From contig NZ_CP068046.1 in NCBI RefSeq assembly GCF_016698665.1, positions 2,666,001 through 2,730,000 of the forward strand: a stretch of 64,000 nucleotides of DNA, written 5' to 3'. Made by a program: the position numbers and the translations under genes. This DNA is from Devosia rhizoryzae. GTDB taxonomy: Bacteria > Pseudomonadota > Alphaproteobacteria > Rhizobiales > Devosiaceae. The notes under the pieces were generated by a model. That model was not told the DNA's origin and did not search any database. It saw only the letters and a list, made by a program, of their open reading frames with translations. This document shows, in pieces, positions 8,170 to 54,115 of the stretch (the first letter of the stretch is position 1; each line of letters begins with the position of its first letter).

Positions 8170-8263
8170 CCGCGGGAGCTTAAACTTTTTTCGCAACCCG
8201 CGGCGCCTTGAGCCATTGCAGTTCCCAGAGACCGGTACGCGTCAACCGGACATGGTGGCATAT

Positions 8264-8287
8264 GGAACGGAGATGGTTTTTCCGGTT
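8264..8287 (+). promoter_or_regulatory. Possible degenerate EcfG promoter before the SDR gene
   Basis: GGAAC at 8264-8268 and GTT at 8285-8287 with 16 bases between. This is one base shorter than the GGAAC-N16-CGTT consensus, so it is a weak call. It lies about 90 bases before the start of an SDR resembling bacterial general stress dehydrogenases. Confidence 0.3.
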
Positions 8288-8374
8288 TCCCGCTCCGGCC
8301 AACGAATTGGCAGCCGAGTCATTATCCCACCCGTACCGGTCTCATCTTCCTTCCATCCGCGCTGCGAGGCCTTC

Positions 8375-46482: not shown

Positions 46483-48162
46483 ATGGTCCAGCCTACCGGT
46501 ATCTCCAAATCCCTCACCGGCATTTCCGGTTTCGACGATCTCACCCTTGGCGGCCTGCCGACCGGCCGGCCCACCCTGGTCTGCGGCTCGGCCGGTTGCG
46601 GCAAGACGCTTTTTGCCACGACCTTCCTGATCCATGGCGCGCGCGATTTCGACGAACCCGGTGTTTTCGTCACCTTCGAGGAGCGGCCGGTGGACATCGC
46701 GGCCAATGTCGCCTCGCTGGGCTTCGACGTCGAGCGCCTCGTGGCAGAGGATAAGCTCAGCTTCGAGCATATCGAGATCGATCCGACCGAACTGGCCGAG
46801 ATCGGCGACTACGATCTTGAGGGGCTGTTTCTTCGCCTGGAACTGGCCATCGACTCCATCGGCGCCAAGCGCGTCGTGCTGGATACGATCGAGAGTCTCT
46901 TCTCCGCCTTCTCCAACCCCGCCATTCTGCGCGCCGAAATCCGGCGCCTCTTCGATTGGCTCAAGGACAAGGGCATGACCACGGTCATCACCGCCGAGCG
47001 CGGCGATGGCACGCTGACCCGCCAGGGCCTCGAAGAATATGTCTCGGACTGCGTGATCCTCCTTGATCATCGCGTCGATAGCCAGATTTCCACCCGCCGC
47101 ATGCGCATCGTCAAATATCGCGGCACCGCGCATGGCACCAACGAATATCCGTTCCTGATCGACGAAGACGGCTTTTCGGTCCTGCCGGTCTCCTCACTCG
47201 GGCTCAACCATCAGGTGTTCGAGGAGCATATCGCCTCGGGCGTGCCCGATCTTGACGCCATGCTGTCGAGCGGCGGCTTTCACCGCGGCTCCTCGATCCT
47301 CGTGTCCGGAGTTGCCGGCTCCGGCAAATCCTCGCTGGCCGCAAGTTTTGTTGGCGCTTCGGCGGCGCGCGGCGAACGGGCGATCTATTTCTCCTTCGAA
47401 GAATCGCAAGAGCAGACGGTGCGCAACATGCGCTCCATCGGAATCGATCTCGCGCCGCTGCTTGAAAGCAAGCTGGTGCGCCATGTCGCTGCCCGTCCCA
47501 CCTTCTATAGCCTTGAGATGCACCTGGCGGTGATGGTCCGCGAAATTCAGCGCTTCGACCCGCGGCTCGTCGTGCTGGACCCGATTTCGGCGTTCATGGA
47601 AAGCGGCGATCGCCTCGAAGTGCAATCCATGCTCCTGCGTATGGTCGATTTTCTCAAAAGCCGCGGCGTCACCGCAATCTTCACCCATCTGATGCACAGC
47701 CAGGACGGCAATGTGGCAACCGATGCTGGCCTTTCCTCGTTAATGGATGCTTGGATCCTCATGCTCAACCGGGAAGTCAATGGTGAGTTCAACCGCGAAC
47801 TCTACCTCCTCAAGGCCCGCGGCATGTCTCATTCCAACCAGGTTCGGGAATTCGTTATGAGCGGCGAGGGCATTCAGCTGCTGCCGCCCTATCTTGGCGA
47901 AAATGGCGCCTTGACCGGCTCTGCCCGTCGCAGCGAAGAAGCGCGCACGCGCCGCACGGAAGCCGAACGCCTCGGCGAAATCGAGCGCTTGCGCACTCAG
48001 ATCGAGACGCGGCGCCGCAAGGCGCATGCGCAAATCGAAGCGCTTACGGCCGAACTCGAGGCCGACGAGGCAGAATTACGCTCTGTGCTTGGGCGCGAAG
48101 CAGCGTATCAGAGGCAGGCGGATACCGACCGGGCGGAAATGGAAACGAGCAGGCGTGCCTGA
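46483..48162 (+). CDS. kaiC: KaiC-like RecA-superfamily ATPase
   Basis: 559 residues, two KaiC domains. CI: Walker A GSAGCGKT (35-42), the Glu pair in VTFEERP, VVLDTIESLF. CII: Walker A GVAGSGKSS (276-284), YFSFEESQEQ, VVLDPISAF. The CII segment TDAGLSSLMDAWILML aligns with the cyanobacterial phosphosite region, giving Ser418-Ser419 in place of Ser431-Thr432. A coiled-coil, Arg/Glu-rich tail of about 75 residues follows (about 483-559). First gene of kaiC-kaiB-kinase; no kaiA. Likely an ATP-driven timer or stress switch rather than a full clock (inference). Confidence 0.93.
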   Translation: MVQPTGISKSLTGISGFDDLTLGGLPTGRPTLVCGSAGCGKTLFATTFLIHGARDFDEPGVFVTFEERPVDIAANVASLGFDVERLVAEDKLSFEHIEIDPTELAEIGDYDLEGLFLRLELAIDSIGAKRVVLDTIESLFSAFSNPAILRAEIRRLFDWLKDKGMTTVITAERGDGTLTRQGLEEYVSDCVILLDHRVDSQISTRRMRIVKYRGTAHGTNEYPFLIDEDGFSVLPVSSLGLNHQVFEEHIASGVPDLDAMLSSGGFHRGSSILVSGVAGSGKSSLAASFVGASAARGERAIYFSFEESQEQTVRNMRSIGIDLAPLLESKLVRHVAARPTFYSLEMHLAVMVREIQRFDPRLVVLDPISAFMESGDRLEVQSMLLRMVDFLKSRGVTAIFTHLMHSQDGNVATDAGLSSLMDAWILMLNREVNGEFNRELYLLKARGMSHSNQVREFVMSGEGIQLLPPYLGENGALTGSARRSEEARTRRTEAERLGEIERLRTQIETRRRKAHAQIEALTAELEADEAELRSVLGREAAYQRQADTDRAEMETSRRA

Positions 48163-48186
48163 GCTCGTTCAGTTAGAGATAAGATC

Positions 48187-48477
48187 ATGACCATCGAAAG
48201 CCCAAATCCTCGCAAGCTTACGCTTTACGTTGCGGGGCAAACGCCCAAATCGCTCACCGCCATTGCCAACCTCAAGAAGATCACCGAGGAGCATATGCCG
48301 GGCCAGTACGAGATCGAGGTGATCGATCTGCGCGAGAATCCCAAGCTCGCCAAGGAACATTCCATCGTCGCCATTCCGACCCTGGTCCGCTCCCTGCCGG
48401 TGCCGATCCGTAAGATCATCGGCGATCTGTCCGATGTCGAAAAGGTCCTGGTCAATCTCAAGGTTCAGGGCGAATGA
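48187..48477 (+). CDS. kaiB: KaiB-like protein
   Basis: 96 residues: [67 protein letters not shown], the thioredoxin-like KaiB fold. In cyanobacteria KaiB binds phosphorylated KaiC and releases output kinases. It lies 24 bases after kaiC, and its stop overlaps the ATG of the kinase gene. Confidence 0.95.
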
Positions 48478-49916
48478 GCACCGAAGAGATCGCCGAGCTG
48501 CGCATCCGGCTCGATGAGGCGGAGCAAACGCTGAAAGCGATCCGCGAAGGCCAGGTCGATGCCCTGGTCATCGACACGCCCGAGGCGGCGGAGATCTTCA
48601 CCATCGAAGGCGAGGGTCAATCCTATCGGGCCTTCATGGAAGCCATGGATGTCGGCGCTGCGGCCGTCGACCACACGGGCCGCATTCTTTATGTCAACGC
48701 CAACCTTGCCGGCACTCTGGGCTCAGGGCTTAACTCGCTCCAGGGCGTGCGCTTCGGCGATGTGGTCGCCCCGGCGATTGCCGGCTCCATCGAGAGCGTC
48801 TTTTCGCGCGGCGAGGACAGCGTCGAGATTCAGCTCAACCAGCATGGCCGCGACAGCCACTTCCTGGTTTCCGCCAAGCCGATGCGCCTTGGCACCACCG
48901 CAGGCTACGCCGTCACCTTCACCGATGTCACCGAGCGGGTGGAAGCCGAACTGGCGCTGCAGAGCGAACGCGCTGCCCGTGCCGTTATTGCATCGGCCAA
49001 TGAAGCGGTGCTTGTGTGCGACCGCAACGGCGTCGTCACCCACGGCAACCTCGCGGCGCAAAATCTCTATTCGGGTGATCCCGTGGGGCGCAAGTTCGCT
49101 GATATCGTGCCGCTGACCTTCCCCGGCGCGACGGGCATGCTGCAGGCCTCCGACATTGTCGAGATGGCCATCCAGGGCACCGCGGTGCAGGGCATAGAGG
49201 CGCATGCGCCCAATGCACCGCGCGTCAAGGATTACCAGATTTCTGCCGCCCCGCTGCAGGTGGGTGAAGACGCGGTCAGCGGCTGCGTCATCACCATGGT
49301 CGATATGAGCCAGCGCAAGGCTGCCGAAAAGCAGCAATTGCTGTTGATGCGCGAACTCGACCACCGGGTCAAAAACACCCTGGCGCTGGTGCTCTCTATC
49401 GCCGGCCGCACCATTCATCACGAAGATACGCTGGAAGGTTTCCAGAAGGCGTTCACTGGCCGCATCCAGGCGCTGGCGGCGACGCATAACCTTCTTGCCG
49501 AAAATTCCTGGACCGATCTCACCATCGCCGACGTGGTCCAGGCCGAGCTTGCCCCGCATGGTGGCGGCGTCGGCCGCATCCATATCGAGGGACTGGATCG
49601 CAACATTGCGCCGCGCGCCGCGATCGCCCTCGGCCTTGTCATCCACGAGCTCGCCACCAATGCCGCCAAATATGGAGCGCTTTCGACCCGAGACGGCCGC
49701 ATTGACGTGCGGACGACCGGCTCGGACAACGAGACGTTCCGCATCGAATGGCGCGAAACCGGCGGACCGGCGGTCGCGGTGCCGACCCGCAAGGGCTTTG
49801 GTCAGAACGTCATCGCCCGCAGCCTGCAATACACGCCTAGCGGTGGCGCCGAGATCGAATACGCGCCCGAAGGCGTGATCTGCCGCATCGCTCTGCCGGT
49901 CGAAGACCTGCGCTGA
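48474..49916 (+). CDS. PAS-containing HWE-family sensor histidine kinase coupled to kaiBC
   Basis: 480 residues, no membrane span. An N-terminal coiled-coil ([18 protein letters not shown]) is followed by two PAS domains (about 50-165 and 170-285) and an HWE/HisKA_2 kinase core: phosphoacceptor in [20 protein letters not shown]-box [14 protein letters not shown], and the WRE of [12 protein letters not shown] kinases are common stress and light sensors in Hyphomicrobiales, often feeding PhyR-type regulators. Translational coupling to kaiB suggests it is the Kai output or input kinase (inference). Confidence 0.9.
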
Positions 49917-49942
49917 ACCTGCAACGAAGCTGACCGGACGAC

Positions 49943-49973
49943 AAAAAAGCCGCCCGGCATCAGCACGGGCGGC
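49943..49973 (-). terminator. Intrinsic terminator for the 76-residue gene
   Basis: On the minus strand GCCGCCCG-N9-CGGGCGGC is followed by TTTTTTGTC. On the plus strand there is only GTGTTT after the stem, so it favours the minus-strand gene, with possible weak use by the kinase operon. Confidence 0.8.
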
Positions 49974-50024
49974 AGTGTTTAGGAGGTCAGGGCGCCGCGG
50001 CAAAACGGCGCTGATGAGCACTGT

Positions 50025-50255
50025 TTAACGAAAGGTTACCGGCCGATCCCCACCCGTTTGAGGGGTGGTCCGAACAATCCGCCGGCGGCGCCAGGATTGC
50101 AGCAACACGGCCGCGATCGAGAGCACGAGCATGGCTGCAAGAAAGCCAAAACCAAGCACAAGCGTTGTCTTGAAGCCCAGCACTTCATGCCCGACGAAAA
50201 AGAACGCGATCAGGCCATAGGTGGGCAGCGACAGATCTTTTTGGCAGCAGGGCAT
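50025..50255 (-). CDS. 76-residue membrane protein next to the two-component island
   Basis: MPCCQKDLSLPTYGLIAFFF starts a protein with two hydrophobic segments (about 12-30 and 31-54) and a basic tail (SWRRRRIVRTT). TTAAGGAG precedes the ATG. The 14-bp motif at 50318-50331 points toward this gene, 63 bases before the start. The N-terminal Cys-Cys pair is notable. No known family recognised. Its longer frame to 50381 has no site. Confidence 0.75.
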   Translation of the reverse strand: MPCCQKDLSLPTYGLIAFFFVGHEVLGFKTTLVLGFGFLAAMLVLSIAAVLLQSWRRRRIVRTTPQTGGDRPVTFR

Positions 50256-50317: not shown

Positions 50318-50331
50318 CCTGTTTGAGTGGG
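50318..50331 (-). promoter_or_regulatory. Island motif copy L-, CCCACTCAAACAGG
   Basis: Reads CCCACTCAAACAGG on the minus strand, facing the 76-residue gene. One of four copies of CCCACYCAAACARR found only in the two intergenic regions flanking the 50.5-53.5 kb operon. Proposed binding site of the LuxR-type regulator (inference). Confidence 0.55.
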
Positions 50332-50376
50332 CTCGGGCGCTCGGTAGTTGCCGATTTGCCGTTGTTTGCCCCTGTC

Positions 50377-50390
50377 CCCACCCAAACAGG
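50377..50390 (+). promoter_or_regulatory. Island motif copy L+, CCCACCCAAACAGG
   Basis: Reads CCCACCCAAACAGG on the plus strand, facing the molybdopterin-fold/kinase/regulator operon, 118 bases before its first ATG. Pairs with the copy at 50318, start-to-start 59 bases. Confidence 0.55.
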
Positions 50391-50507
50391 TAAAATCGGG
50401 AAATTATATCAACATTGTGCTGCGCAAGTGCTGGACCTAAGCAACGCGCCGCAGCAATATGGACCTTGTGCTCCAGAGAGGTCTGGACCATTGGGGAATG
50501 CTTCAAA

Positions 50508-51050
50508 ATGCTTGTGAAAACTGCGCCGGTTGCTGGGTGGGTAGCCGCAGCACGGCTTTTGTTGATTGCCGCCGCCACGATCCTGGGCCTCGGGCAGGCG
50601 CTGGCGCTTGATCCGCTGCCCGCGCCAACCGGTCCGGTGATCCTTACCGTTGCCGGTGATCTTGAAGTCACCAATAGCGACGAAGGCGCCGATTTTGACC
50701 GCGAAATGCTTTACGCGCTAGGCCTTACCGATCTTGTCACCACCACGGCCTGGACTGACGGGCCGCAGACCTTCCGCGGCGTGGCGCTGCAAACCGTGCT
50801 CGATCGCGTCGGCGCCAAGGGCACGACGATCAAGGCCACGGCACTGAACGATTTCCGCACCTCGATCCCCTACGAGGAAGCGGCAAAATACAATGTCCTC
50901 CTGGCTTCCGAGATGAATGGCGAGGAGATGAGCGTGCGCGATCGCGGTCCGCTCTGGATCGTTTACCCCCGTTCCGACTTTTCCGAACTCCAGGCGCCCG
51001 AATACAATGACCGCTGGGCCTGGCAATTGCGGACGCTTGAGATCGAATGA
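50508..51050 (+). CDS. Exported molybdopterin-fold-like protein
   Basis: 180 residues with an N-terminal signal or anchor (KTAPVAGWVAAARLLLIAAATILGLGQALA). The mature part, beginning LDPLPAPTGPVILTVAGDLEVTN, includes TTTAWTDGPQTFRGVALQTVLDRVGAKG and RDRGPLWIVYPRSDF, which resemble small sulfite-oxidase-fold (Oxidored_molyb) proteins. The conserved molybdenum-ligand Cys of the family is not seen, so it may be a non-catalytic sensor. The stop overlaps the kinase ATG, so it is probably the periplasmic sensor partner. Confidence 0.75.
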   Translation: MLVKTAPVAGWVAAARLLLIAAATILGLGQALALDPLPAPTGPVILTVAGDLEVTNSDEGADFDREMLYALGLTDLVTTTAWTDGPQTFRGVALQTVLDRVGAKGTTIKATALNDFRTSIPYEEAAKYNVLLASEMNGEEMSVRDRGPLWIVYPRSDFSELQAPEYNDRWAWQLRTLEIE

Positions 51051-52426
51051 GCCTGCGGCCGTGGATGACAAGGCGATTTCTCGTGGCGCTGGTCGCCATG
51101 GGAATTCTGTTCGCCCTGTTGATCGCGGCCAGCGTTCGCCTCCTGCAGAGCGAAACCCGTACAGTCGACTATATCAGCGAGGACATGGTCTGGCTTTCGA
51201 GCCAGGGCCAGTATGAAGCCATCCGCTATGCCGATGCCCTGTCGAGCTTCGCCCGCGGGCAGGCGACCATCGACGAGCCGCAGCTGCGGCTTGATCTCCT
51301 CAGCAGCCGCATCACCGTGCTCGAGGACGGCGAAACCTACCGGCAGATGCAGCAACTGGGCTATGCGGACGAGCTGACCCAGTTCCGCGTTGCGGTCGAC
51401 GACGCGGTGAACCGCATGGTGGGCCTGCAGCCCAGCCATGTGGCGGAGATCACCGCGCTCCACAAGGAAGCCCAAGACCTTGCCGCGGATCTTCGCGATG
51501 TTGCCAATGCTGCGATGTTTGCCAAGCGCGACCACGACAAGGGCGTGCGCGACGAGCGGCGCCATACATTGTTTGAAGTCCTGGGCACGCTGGTTGCCAC
51601 CATGGCCGCGGGTCTCCTCATGGCGGGGGTCCTTGTGCGCGACCACCGCAACATGGTGAGCGCGGAGTCCGCTCTCGAGCGCGAGCGGCAGGTGTCGCGC
51701 CTGCACCGTGCCTTCATCTCCGTCGTCTCGCACCAGTTCCGCACGCCGCTCGCCATCATCGACGCCAGCGCCCAGCGTATGATCCGCCGCGGCGCGCAGA
51801 TGGATGTGACCGAGATCGTTCAGCGCGCCGACAAGATCCGCGCCGCCTGCCTCCGCCTCACGCGTCTGATGGAATCCACCCTTAACGCCGCTCGGCTCGA
51901 AGAGGGCGAGATCACTCTCAACATCCGAGGCTGCGACCCTGTTTCATTGCTGCGCACCGTGATCGACAGCCAGCCCGATCAGGATCAGAAGCGCATCGAA
52001 TTGCGCATGGAAAACGTTCCCGGCTGGATCGAAGCGGACATTACCCTGCTTGAGCAAGCGGTGCAGAACCTTCTCTCCAACGCGCTCAAATATTCGCCAG
52101 ACGGCGAGCCGGTTCTGGTTGCCGCGCGGCGCCATGGCACCGACATCCTGATCAGCGTTACCGATAAGGGCGTCGGCATCCCACCCGACGAGATGGACCA
52201 GTTGTTCCGCCGCTTTTTCCGCGCCAGCACGTCGGAAGGCATTCCGGGCACCGGCATCGGCCTCAGCTTTGTTTGGCAGATCATGGATCTCCATCACGGC
52301 ACGGTTGATGTCCGCAGCACTTTGGGCCAGGGCTCCACCTTCACCATCCGCATGCCTATCACTCAGCCCGTTGCCAAGACCGGCACCAGGCCTCCCCTCC
52401 CCGCAGAAGCCACGGCACCATCATGA
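51047..52426 (+). CDS. Membrane sensor histidine kinase
   Basis: 459 residues: a first membrane span (about 9-29), a periplasmic four-helix-type domain (about 30-175), a second span (about 178-197), then a coiled-coil linker, H-box ISVVSHQFRTPLAIIDASAQ, N-box EQAVQNLLSNALKYSPDG, and glycine boxes VTDKGVGIPPDE and GTGIGLSFVWQIM. The sensor domain is not a recognised one. It should signal to the regulator encoded by the overlapping downstream gene (ATGA), possibly sensing through the exported partner at 50508. Confidence 0.93.
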   Translation: MSLRPWMTRRFLVALVAMGILFALLIAASVRLLQSETRTVDYISEDMVWLSSQGQYEAIRYADALSSFARGQATIDEPQLRLDLLSSRITVLEDGETYRQMQQLGYADELTQFRVAVDDAVNRMVGLQPSHVAEITALHKEAQDLAADLRDVANAAMFAKRDHDKGVRDERRHTLFEVLGTLVATMAAGLLMAGVLVRDHRNMVSAESALERERQVSRLHRAFISVVSHQFRTPLAIIDASAQRMIRRGAQMDVTEIVQRADKIRAACLRLTRLMESTLNAARLEEGEITLNIRGCDPVSLLRTVIDSQPDQDQKRIELRMENVPGWIEADITLLEQAVQNLLSNALKYSPDGEPVLVAARRHGTDILISVTDKGVGIPPDEMDQLFRRFFRASTSEGIPGTGIGLSFVWQIMDLHHGTVDVRSTLGQGSTFTIRMPITQPVAKTGTRPPLPAEATAPS

Positions 52427-53457
52427 CCGCCTCCATCCTTTGTGTCGAAGACGAAGCCGATCTGCGCAGCGACATTGTCGAGGAGCTGGTCGCCGCCGGC
52501 TACCAGGTGGACGAAGCCGGCAATGGCCTTGAAGCGCTCGAGCAGCTCAAGAACCAGCGCTATGACCTCGTGCTCTGCGACATCACCATGCCGCGCATGT
52601 CCGGTCTCGAACTCCTGAAACAGGTGCGCCAGGAAGCCTCGATGGCCGACCTGCCGTTCATCTTTCTCACCGCCCTTGCCGGACGCCGCGACATCATCGC
52701 CGGCAAGGAAGCCGGGGTCGACGACTACCTGACCAAGCCCATCGATTTTGATCTCATGCTGATCACCATCGCAGCGCGCCTCGATCAGGTCCGCCGCATC
52801 AAGGGAGCAAAGCCCGCTGAGGACGAGGGCGAAAGCCAGTCGCTGCGCGCCGCGCTCCTCGGCGCCGACGAGGCGCTTAACCGCATCGCCGTAGGCGTCT
52901 TCCTGCTCGATAGCGAACGCAAGGTGTTGTCCCGCAATCGCCGCGCCGATGAACTTCTGGCCGAAGCCGATGGCATCAGCCTGTCGCGTGAAGGGCTGTT
53001 GCGCGGGGAAAAGCCGCAGCAGACCCAGGCGCTGCGCGACATCGTCGACATTGCGATCGCCCGCGTCGCCGAAGGCAACCGGCAGGGCAGCGAAGCGGTA
53101 GGCCTCACCCGCGACAGCGGCAAGCGTCCGCTGATCGCCGTCGCCTGCCCGCTGGGCAAGGGTCCCGCCGCGGCCGGCGAGCCGGTCGTGGGCCTCTTCG
53201 TCACCGATCCCGAATGGCGGTCTTCGGATGCCGCCAGCGCCGTCGCCCAGCTTTATGGTCTGTCGCCCGCCGAAACGCGGCTGGCTCTGGCCCTGGTACG
53301 CGGGCTCCGGCTCGATGAAGTCGCCGATGAATTCGGACTTTCGCGCAATACGGTGAGCTACACGCTCAAGAACCTCTTCCGCAAAACCGAGACCGACCGG
53401 CAGGCCGACCTCATCAGCCTCTTTCTCTCCAATCCAGTGTCGCTGGAACGGAGCTAG
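52423..53457 (+). CDS. Response regulator: receiver, PAS-like middle, LuxR-type HTH
   Basis: 344 residues. The receiver has the acidic pair in LCVEDEADLR, phosphoacceptor Asp53 (LCDITMPRM), Thr in LTALAG and Lys105 (LTKPID). A middle PAS-like domain (about 145-265: GVFLLDSERKVLSRNRRADELLAEADG) precedes a C-terminal LuxR helix-turn-helix (LYGLSPAETRLALALVRGLRLDEVADEFGLSRNTVSYTLKNLFRKT). The PAS insert between receiver and HTH is uncommon. It likely binds the 14-bp motifs flanking the operon (inference). Confidence 0.92.
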   Translation: MTASILCVEDEADLRSDIVEELVAAGYQVDEAGNGLEALEQLKNQRYDLVLCDITMPRMSGLELLKQVRQEASMADLPFIFLTALAGRRDIIAGKEAGVDDYLTKPIDFDLMLITIAARLDQVRRIKGAKPAEDEGESQSLRAALLGADEALNRIAVGVFLLDSERKVLSRNRRADELLAEADGISLSREGLLRGEKPQQTQALRDIVDIAIARVAEGNRQGSEAVGLTRDSGKRPLIAVACPLGKGPAAAGEPVVGLFVTDPEWRSSDAASAVAQLYGLSPAETRLALALVRGLRLDEVADEFGLSRNTVSYTLKNLFRKTETDRQADLISLFLSNPVSLERS

Positions 53458-53639
53458 GCCGCCCGACGGCCCGCCAGGGTCCAGTCTGACCGGGCTGGAC
53501 GCTTGCGCGCGGATTTGGGCCGGAACGCCGGGTCGGCCGCGATCAAGGAAGCGATCGCCTGATCCAGTCCGCGGAACACGCCGCCGAGTTCGGGAAAATC
53601 GGCTTCGTTGAAGTTGGAATTGTCTGGCAAACGGGTCAT
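53454..53639 (-). CDS. 61-residue basic protein, hypothetical
   Basis: MTRLPDNSNFNEADFPELGG begins an acidic half; the C-terminal half is Arg/Lys-rich (FRPKSARKRPARSDWTLAGRRAA). GGGGAGAAG precedes ATG 53639; the longer frame to 53657 is unsupported. The 3' end overlaps the response-regulator gene by four bases. It lies 18 bases after the 26-residue gene, probably co-transcribed. Family not recognised. Confidence 0.65.
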   Translation of the reverse strand: MTRLPDNSNFNEADFPELGGVFRGLDQAIASLIAADPAFRPKSARKRPARSDWTLAGRRAA

Positions 53640-53657
53640 CTCGCTTCTCCCCGGCAA

Positions 53658-53738
53658 CTACTGCATCAGCCCATAGGGCAGGATCAGCATGGCAAGGCTG
53701 ACCGCATAAAGGCTTGAAATCATCAGGGTGCGCCGCAT
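53658..53738 (-). CDS. 26-residue single-span microprotein
   Basis: MRRTLMISSLYAVSLAMLIL then PYGLMQ: a basic start and one hydrophobic segment, preceded by GCGGAGG. 89 bases downstream of the motif copy facing it. Too small for a homology argument; the ribosome-binding site and context support it. Confidence 0.5.
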   Translation of the reverse strand: MRRTLMISSLYAVSLAMLILPYGLMQ

Positions 53739-53826
53739 CGGGACCTCCGCATCTGGTGTGAAAGAATCAAGGCGAGTGCATCGCCATTGACCGGCTTTCA
53801 CCATGCCCAAGCCTCGCGCCGCACCC

Positions 53827-53840
53827 TCTGTTTGAGTGGG
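53827..53840 (-). promoter_or_regulatory. Island motif copy R-, CCCACTCAAACAGA
   Basis: Reads CCCACTCAAACAGA on the minus strand, facing the 26- and 61-residue genes. Differs from the copy at 50318 by one base. Confidence 0.55.
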
Positions 53841-53891
53841 CCTCCTTGGATTTGTTGAGACCTTGGATCGACGTCCGGAAAAAATATTGAG

Positions 53892-53905
53892 CCCACCCAA
53901 ACAAG
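53892..53905 (+). promoter_or_regulatory. Island motif copy R+, CCCACCCAAACAAG
   Basis: Reads CCCACCCAAACAAG on the plus strand, facing the DUF1127 gene, 58 bases before its ATG. Pairs with the copy at 53827, start-to-start 65 bases. Confidence 0.55.
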
Positions 53906-53962
53906 GGGTTCGGTCCAGTCGCGCCACCCCTAGAGAGAGCTCACCAAACAAGGAGAGCTTTC

Positions 53963-54115
53963 ATGAACATCATCGACACCTGGCTGGAAAAGCGCCGCAA
54001 CCGCTCCACCTACCGCCAACTGGTCACCCTCAGCGACCAGATGCTGGGCGACATCGGCATCACCCGCTACGACCTCGACAAGCTGCGTCGCGGCCGTCCC
54101 GCAAACGACCGGTGA
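53963..54115 (+). CDS. DUF1127 (YjiS-like) protein, 50 residues
   Basis: MNIIDTWLEKRRNRSTYRQL, then VTLSDQMLGDIGITRYDLDK: the DUF1127 pattern of an Arg-rich helix and a LxDhxLxDIGIxR block. AAGGAGAG precedes the ATG. In other alphaproteobacteria small DUF1127 proteins affect RNA turnover and phosphate or carbon metabolism; here the motif upstream suggests control by the neighbouring two-component system (inference). Confidence 0.92.
   Translation: MNIIDTWLEKRRNRSTYRQLVTLSDQMLGDIGITRYDLDKLRRGRPANDR

Follow-up and report, generated by a model that had tools for sequence, protein, structure and literature searches.

A palindromic operator and its predicted gene set at a PruR-linked two-component operon of Devosia rhizoryzae

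PruR proteins, of which that of Agrobacterium tumefaciens is represented by Protein Data Bank (PDB) entry 7kos, have lost the molybdenum-ligating cysteine and carry a tryptophan (PMC13259868). Kinases with a WX7E motif that are encoded behind pruR have been termed "PruR-DTB" systems, i.e., of the DcpA-TorS-BaeS type (PMC13259868, citing Greenwich et al. 2024 PNAS). Kinases linked to PruR occur widely in Proteobacteria, and their gene targets are the question addressed here; in its passages, the same pterin review (PMC13259868) names no target gene of a PruR-DTB kinase, and the term "response regulator" has 0 occurrences. We analyzed a 64,000-nt stretch of Devosia rhizoryzae (contig NZ_CP068046.1, positions 2,666,001 to 2,730,000; G000:C1:2666001-2730000 in our collection), hereafter the window, from a genome (G000) of 3,524,878 bases in one contig. 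The window carries an operon for an exported protein, a histidine kinase and a response regulator, with copies of a short repeat on both sides. It is rather likely, judging from the sequence comparisons below, that these repeats represent the operator and mark the regulon of a PruR-DTB two-component system, with the system's own regulator acting as a class II activator.

The first gene of the operon codes for a protein that a first-pass annotation of the window had called molybdopterin-fold-like, a label that misjudged the sensor. The protein matched PDB entries 7kos (2.4e-38), 7rkb (3.3e-35), 7kp2 (4.8e-24) and 7kom (1.9e-18), and by its match to 7kos it is PruR-like. The 7kos alignment spans residues 38-179 and places the TTAWTDG motif opposite TTPWHDG of PruR, and the protein starts with an N-terminal hydrophobic segment, which fits the description of PruR as a secreted protein of ~170 aa. 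This exported PF00174 protein is by sequence a homologue of the periplasmic pterin-binding PruR, and pterin binding is expected of it. Its open reading frame (ORF) overlaps that of the kinase by 4 nt, and pruR-kinase adjacency was found in most relatives. The second gene had been read as a histidine kinase, which its HisKA and HATPase domains bear out; its WX7E motif is present in 13/13 orthologous Devosia loci. The third product had been described as a PAS-LuxR response regulator. Pfam search revealed a receiver and a weak, sub-threshold LuxR/GerE-like helix-turn-helix (HTH) but no PAS domain in it, hence the PAS assignment was dropped. The regulator of D. aurantiaca is 96% identical to that of the window, and D. 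crocina and D. pacifica have orthologues as well.

The four copies of a 14-bp motif previously placed at 50318 (minus), 50377 (plus), 53827 (minus) and 53892 (plus) were all recovered in a scan of the window, each with 0 mismatches. Rather than being scattered, the exact pattern is confined to this cluster, with 4 occurrences in the whole of the 3.52-Mb genome. At ≤1 mismatch, 12 matches were obtained genome-wide versus 3 for a reversed control pattern, and at ≤3 mismatches the window gave 19 matches versus 19.95 expected. The looser window matches being at chance level, the signal therefore resides in the exact copies. As a motif length, though, 14 bp does not stand, the actual unit being an 18-bp palindrome. 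When used as the unit, the 14-mer CCCACYCAAACA matched 37/136 family genomes, mostly once each, with the four-copy cluster in the own genome only, and it was rejected; relatives carry diverged copies of it.

A search for the regulator in the 136 family genomes gave 32 with a match at E ≤1e-30. Thirteen of the 75 same-genus genomes (own included) were classed as regulator-bearing, with orthologues of ≥71% identity, and 62 as regulator-lacking. The comparison comprised the 12 other orthologous loci and 13 loci (L085-L097) with 40-48% relatives (11 further family genomes, three same-genus). The 13 orthologous loci provided 45 upstream regions (some of which overlap) for Gibbs sampling, which yielded CCCACCCAAACGGGTGGGGA, with a best information content of 18.7 bits and agreement between 4/6 runs. 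The operator is an imperfect 18-bp palindrome, (A/C)CC(A/C)CNC-AAAY-RRGTGGN, which is kept beside the orthologous Devosia regulator, so that the motif is indeed present at the related operons. Position 6, for which a T in minus copies and a C in plus copies had been pointed out, is free in the palindrome, and this rule is meaningless for that reason. A matrix of 31 sites located strong sites before P76, DUF1127, P26, a flavin adenine dinucleotide (FAD) oxidoreductase gene and the operon (small genes in Table 1), and at a non-coding spot behind P76; with the same matrix, no site of ≥15 bits was found in the 13 more distant loci L085-L097. A degenerate fifth copy had been suspected near 50050, inside the P76 gene. 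The copy is there, at 50047-50066, and is not degenerate: with 26.9 bits against the family matrix it is the maximum of the window locus, even though it lies outside the 31 matrix sites, and it is matched (E 2.7e-4) by R1, a profile of 47 positions built from 34 promoters of regulator-bearing genomes.

Alignment of 42 gene-facing sites displayed the 18-bp palindrome plus a G, followed by a TA at index 40-41 from the site start, the spacing between the operator G19 and the T of the TA being 20 nt. TA or TT at index 40 was found in 31/34 non-P76 sites, versus 0-9 elsewhere in the range of 30 to 51; by class, the counts were 11/11 for DUF1127, 8/8 for the FAD gene, 5/6 for P26 and 7/9 for the predicted small RNA (sRNA) described below. 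The DUF1127 operators are located at -74 to -80 from the start codon in 10/11 loci. If the index-40 T is taken as -12, the palindrome centre would fall at about -42.5, which is the place of a class II activator, and the -35 region would coincide with the GGTGGGG arm of the operator. A class II layout, with a site at ~-42, a fixed -10 and no -35, was thus found for 31/34 non-P76 Devosia sites. Because the palindrome at ~-42.5 would cover the -35 place, with the -10 at a fixed spacing, the regulator is predicted to be a class II activator.

A fixed -10 in 31/34 non-P76 sites would be equally expected from the promoters of an alternative sigma factor, with GGGTGGGG as the -35 and the TA as the -10, 20 nt from the last G to the T, and an RpoHI/RpoHII promoter serves the DUF1127-sRNA operon in Rhodobacter sphaeroides (PMC10253847). 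We consider a sigma factor improbable, since the CCC half, which is distant from the -35, is conserved as well as the GGG half, the core occurs in either orientation before the same gene class, 6/28 sites in other orders are flanked on either side by a correctly spaced TA, and the sites go together with the regulator operon. Alternatively, the regulator might occupy the sites and mainly repress, by blocking RNA polymerase at the -35 region. The overlap of the operator with the -35 place would agree with this, as would the own-operon promoter of Devosia, where a conserved promoter-like pair with a -35-like element (TGGACC...AATATG, 50432-50461; recognized by eye in several relatives) is located downstream of the operator. 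Repression is nevertheless unlikely, as no -35 consensus was seen in the other promoter classes, which fits activator dependence, and a strict spacing would be unnecessary for it. Intergenic palindromic repeats are common in bacteria, and the sites could in principle belong to a dispersed repeat of this kind or be due to chance; given the lack of dispersal in the genome, the near-fixed start-codon distance and the -10 phasing, this is hardly credible.

The distribution of the sites among Devosia genomes also argues for operators of the regulator. At E ≤0.008, R1 gave 33 matches in 13/13 regulator-bearing genomes, which are its training loci, and 1 match (1/30) when 30 of the 62 regulator-lacking genomes were searched, where 7 matches were obtained at E ≤0.1. 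Since R1 was trained on the bearing genomes, the contrast rests on the regulator-lacking count. An earlier pattern search in the 75 genomes had given 27 matches in 11/13 bearing genomes (reversed control, 6) and 16 in 14/62 others. Gene order varies, pruR and the kinase gene lying downstream of the regulator in six loci (L074-L079), and the regulator mostly retains P76 (8/13 loci), P26-P61 (10/13) and DUF1127 (11/13) as neighbours. In G031 (L202 and L127, contig C7), pruR and a kinase gene form a second operon that has an operator copy and a P61-like ORF.

In 8 loci an FAD oxidoreductase gene with its own operator sits in the cluster. In the own genome, the sole strong R1 match outside the cluster (G000:C1:603448-603493; 18.9 bits, untrained) precedes the gene for an FAD-binding/BBE oxidoreductase of 467 aa, with its start 85 nt from the ATG, the cluster itself being at 2,716 kb; a second untrained FAD-oxidoreductase site, in G013 (L188), scored 17.9 bits. 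Orthologues of this oxidoreductase (≥61% identity, one partial) were found in 10/13 regulator-bearing and in 0/62 other genomes, and paralogues of 45-50% in five regulator-lacking genomes and G031. In L188 the FAD reading frame breaks after 22 codons, with a 75% match in the remainder, due to a frameshift or an assembly error. The 18 further R1 stretches in other bearing genomes were mixed, 4/18 being without a site of ≥14 bits; L188 and L202 (the second operon of G031) clearly face genes, most of the others are without an assignment, and some are probably due to chance. An ORF of 217 aa with a hydrophobic N-terminus is a possible extra target; an operator-like site of 24.4 bits (L197, G028:C1:2242488) starts 166 nt before its ATG.

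To extend the comparison beyond Devosia, 68 loci (L213 to L280) were analyzed from a scan of the genome collection, limited to 80 of 209 relatives. For 17 loci (Rhodobacterales for the most part, together with Stappia and one Shinella), Gibbs sampling of the regions before pruR, in a run independent of the Devosia motif, gave GCCCCCTTCGTTTGGAGGGG with 21.6 bits. On its opposite strand the Devosia site reads CCCACYY-GTTTG-RGTGGG, i.e., it has the same layout. The pattern CCC-N4-YRTTYR-N3-GGG was found in 22/24 alphaproteobacterial loci other than those of Devosia and Microvirga (28 sites versus 0.8 expected), and this Rhodobacterales form also occurs in 8/13 of the loci L085-L097, which carry the 40-48% operon versions. 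Of the 28 non-Devosia sites, 24 had a TA at the class II distance on at least one side and 6 had it on both, versus ≤7 and 0 in shifted controls. Eight whole genomes were then searched with a stricter form of the operator (≤1 mismatch); Brucella pseudintermedia and Shinella daejeonensis have 3 sites apiece, and all of these are at the operon, within about 5 kb.

Several observations weigh against this interpretation. The receiver of the regulator scores 95.9 bits, but its GerE match, at 22.0 bits, is under the cut-off of 23.5. The kinase region between the transmembrane (TM) segments is ~140 aa, versus the ~190 aa given for DcpA/DTB, and WX7E was found in 66/81 loci, most Rhodobacterales loci having it only at another position, possibly by chance. 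A -10 at index 40 is present in 0/8 P76 sites, and the own-operon sites of Devosia are upstream of a promoter-like pair possessing a -35; Devosia autoregulation therefore need not be class II. R1 and the sRNA model R2 (see below) score best in the very loci they were built from. Outside Devosia, the CCC/GGG pattern is absent from Roseomonas L221 and Stappia L273, and in the whole-genome searches the sites at the operon accounted for 2/3 in G136, 1/2 in G139, 1/1 in G140, at least 2/5 in G141, 3/4 in G142 and 1/3 in G143. Finally, in Microvirga, which has a related HTH, the operator is nearly absent (3 sites in 2/36 loci versus 0.8 expected) from loci that keep the operon (L222-L251, L253, L254, L257 and L277-L279), and the best that Gibbs sampling on 32 upstream regions produced was an AT-rich element, not palindromic, near the pruR start. 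An operator universal to the regulator family fails in Microvirga and was rejected.

An operon retained almost without sites in Microvirga would also agree with the use of the sites by a different DNA-binding protein, the regulator being just a neighbour, and the binding of regulator to operator does rest on sequence inference. It is improbable that such a protein accounts for the sites, which track the operon across Devosia, Rhodobacterales, Brucella and Shinella and are nearly absent from the 30 regulator-lacking Devosia genomes searched, despite the changing gene order around the operon. The preferred reading, operators of the own regulator, builds on what was read from the sequences: the operator, its conservation, its spacing, the gene set and the PruR homology.

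The features of the locus are collected in Table 1. The small genes were scored for recurrence beside the orthologous regulator at E ≤0.01 in 13 loci, and their codon changes were counted as synonymous/nonsynonymous relative to the closest relative. By these counts, DUF1127 and P61 are clearly under coding constraint, P46 and P76 only weakly so, and the codon changes are uninformative for P26. Binding to sensor kinases or RNA has been described for DUF1127 proteins (PMC12501420). Beside the P76 gene, and convergent with it, is a kaiC-kaiB-kinase cluster (46483-49916) that codes for KaiC (PRK09302-type), KaiB (PF07689) and a PAS/HWE histidine kinase.

Table 1. Features at the PruR-linked operon (window positions; recurrence as loci of 13; codon changes synonymous/nonsynonymous)
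Feature	Position	Strand	Description
PruR-like exported protein	50508..51050	+	180 aa, 0 Cys, Trp82 in TTAWTDG; PF00174 (Pfam)
Histidine kinase, probably DTB-type	51047..52426	+	two TM segments, periplasmic WX7E (W49-E57), HisKA PF00512, HATPase PF02518
Response regulator	52423..53457	+	receiver and probable C-terminal LuxR/GerE-like HTH; putative operator binder
Predicted sRNA	49941..50015	-	~75 nt: 5' hairpin, single-stranded linker with ACCUCC, intrinsic terminator
Operator copy 5	50047..50066	-	20-bp frame; in last P76 codons; -10-like TAAACA 50027-50022; precedes predicted sRNA
Operator facing P76	50312..50331	-	20-bp frame (50318-50331 in the first-pass annotation); 26.8 bits
Operator facing operon	50377..50396	+	right half degenerate; 16.0 bits
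Operator facing P26-P61	53821..53840	-	20-bp frame (53827-53840 in the first-pass annotation); 21.7 bits
Operator facing DUF1127-P46	53892..53911	+	22.1 bits; -10-like TAGAGA 53931-53936
P76	50025..50255	-	76-aa membrane protein, one TM-like segment; 8/13 loci; 19/21 codon changes
P61	53454..53639	-	61 aa, second gene after P26 operator; 10/13 loci; 18/7 codon changes
P26	53658..53738	-	26-aa hydrophobic peptide; 10/13 loci; identical in closest relative, 1/0 codon changes
DUF1127	53963..54115	+	50 aa; PF06568, 1.9e-10; 11/13 loci; 6/1 codon changes
P46	54123..54263	+	46 aa; 5/13 loci; 9/8 codon changes

The predicted sRNA begins ~10 nt past the P76 stop, and its terminator ends near 49941. 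The stretch is alignable in 9/13 loci, with the 5' hairpin, the CUGACCUCC linker and the terminator; the L076 copy lacks the 5' hairpin, and the L079 copy has the GACCUCC stretch twice. Counterparts of operator copy 5 precede the predicted sRNA in L073-L079 and L081. The fold of the window copy has -35.5 kcal/mol (z -4.29). Covariation is weak, with a two-sided change in 1/12 pairs, and the case for an sRNA therefore rests on the conserved linker and terminator. A model of the RNA, R2, matched 37 of the 75 genomes at E ≤0.01, in two groups. The strong matches (59-85 bits) fell in 8 regulator-bearing genomes, each of which had contributed to R2. The weak matches (24-39 bits) included 25 regulator-lacking genomes, the best being G056 with 39.2 bits, and were taken as terminator-like background; G028, a source genome of R2, scored 35 bits. 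The regulator-bearing G030, G031, G037 and G080 have no clear copy. An Rfam scan of the window gave no match overlapping 49941-50015 up to E 5 and none there at the gathering score, which ruled out a known sRNA family for the 75-nt RNA. The sole window match at the gathering score was the sRNA Atu_At1 (RF02496) at 8230-8337, with 86.8 bits.

The locus had been pictured at first reading as a compact signalling island that controls its own operon and local microproteins. The shared site, the orthologous clusters, the co-occurrence with the regulator, the -10 spacing and the same operator in other orders agree with this picture; against it, the gene set is not merely local (FAD oxidoreductase at 603 kb, cluster at 2,716 kb), the fifth copy precedes a predicted sRNA, and the own-operon spacing is not that of class II. 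In the scheme that we propose, the pterin signal, the phosphotransfer, the DNA binding and the activation are all inferred. In the periplasm, a (probably reduced) pterin would be the ligand of the secreted PruR-like protein, which would alter the activity of the membrane kinase via its WX7E periplasmic domain. The kinase would then phosphorylate the LuxR/GerE-like regulator, a dimer of which would occupy the 18-bp palindrome. At most targets the palindrome, centred at ~-42.5 and covering the -35 place with the -10 at a fixed spacing, would lead to class II activation. The predicted targets are the sRNA in the P76 3' end, DUF1127-P46, P26-P61 and the BBE-type FAD oxidoreductase at 602-603 kb, with P76 and the operon itself as probable further ones.

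We would put forward only tentatively, and with some doubt, that a kinase reading a pterin (possibly redox) signal drives a mainly riboregulatory and microprotein output via one activator. If so, the activator would switch on an anti-Shine-Dalgarno sRNA, a DUF1127 protein, hydrophobic micropeptides and an FAD oxidoreductase; the micropeptides may feed back on the kinase, and the oxidoreductase may act on the redox pool of the signal. The analysis supplies a precise operator, a regulator, a target list that includes a predicted sRNA, and predictions for several alphaproteobacterial groups, so that what pterin sensing by PruR-DTB kinases controls becomes a directly testable question in a soil bacterium. 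A literature search with six spelled-out site forms returned one unrelated rat paper only, the primary PruR paper being outside the search. To our knowledge, no PruR-DTB system has yet been assigned an operator and a gene set, and those proposed here would be the first, with a palindrome common to Rhizobiales and Rhodobacterales.

Among known systems, the CIN1 and ccaF1-CcsR loci likewise combine a DUF1127 gene with an sRNA that contains a CCUCC stretch, but the Devosia locus differs in its separate promoters, in having another operator instead of an RpoH promoter, and in having one sRNA. In the CcsR-type layout the sRNAs are co-transcribed downstream of DUF1127 from an RpoH promoter, whereas here the predicted sRNA is located behind P76, and DUF1127 and the sRNA each have their own operator. 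Furthermore, CcsR sRNAs carry the CCUCCUCCC motif, which the predicted Devosia sRNA lacks. With class II activators of the LuxR/NarL kind, such as LuxR, whose site at luxI is centred at -42.5, the locus shares a palindromic site centred near -42; the operator sequence is different, and the regulator contains a receiver. The PruA-PruR-DcpA system of Agrobacterium tumefaciens resembles that of Devosia in the PruR homology over residues 38-179, the loss of the Mo-ligating Cys and the motif Trp. Its output is a cyclic di-GMP (c-di-GMP) enzyme, whereas in Devosia a two-component phosphorelay would lead to transcription. As in PruR-DTB systems, a pruR-like gene is directly upstream of the gene for a kinase with a periplasmic WX7E motif; the Devosia operon is distinguished by a response regulator as its third gene and by a defined DNA operator and gene set.

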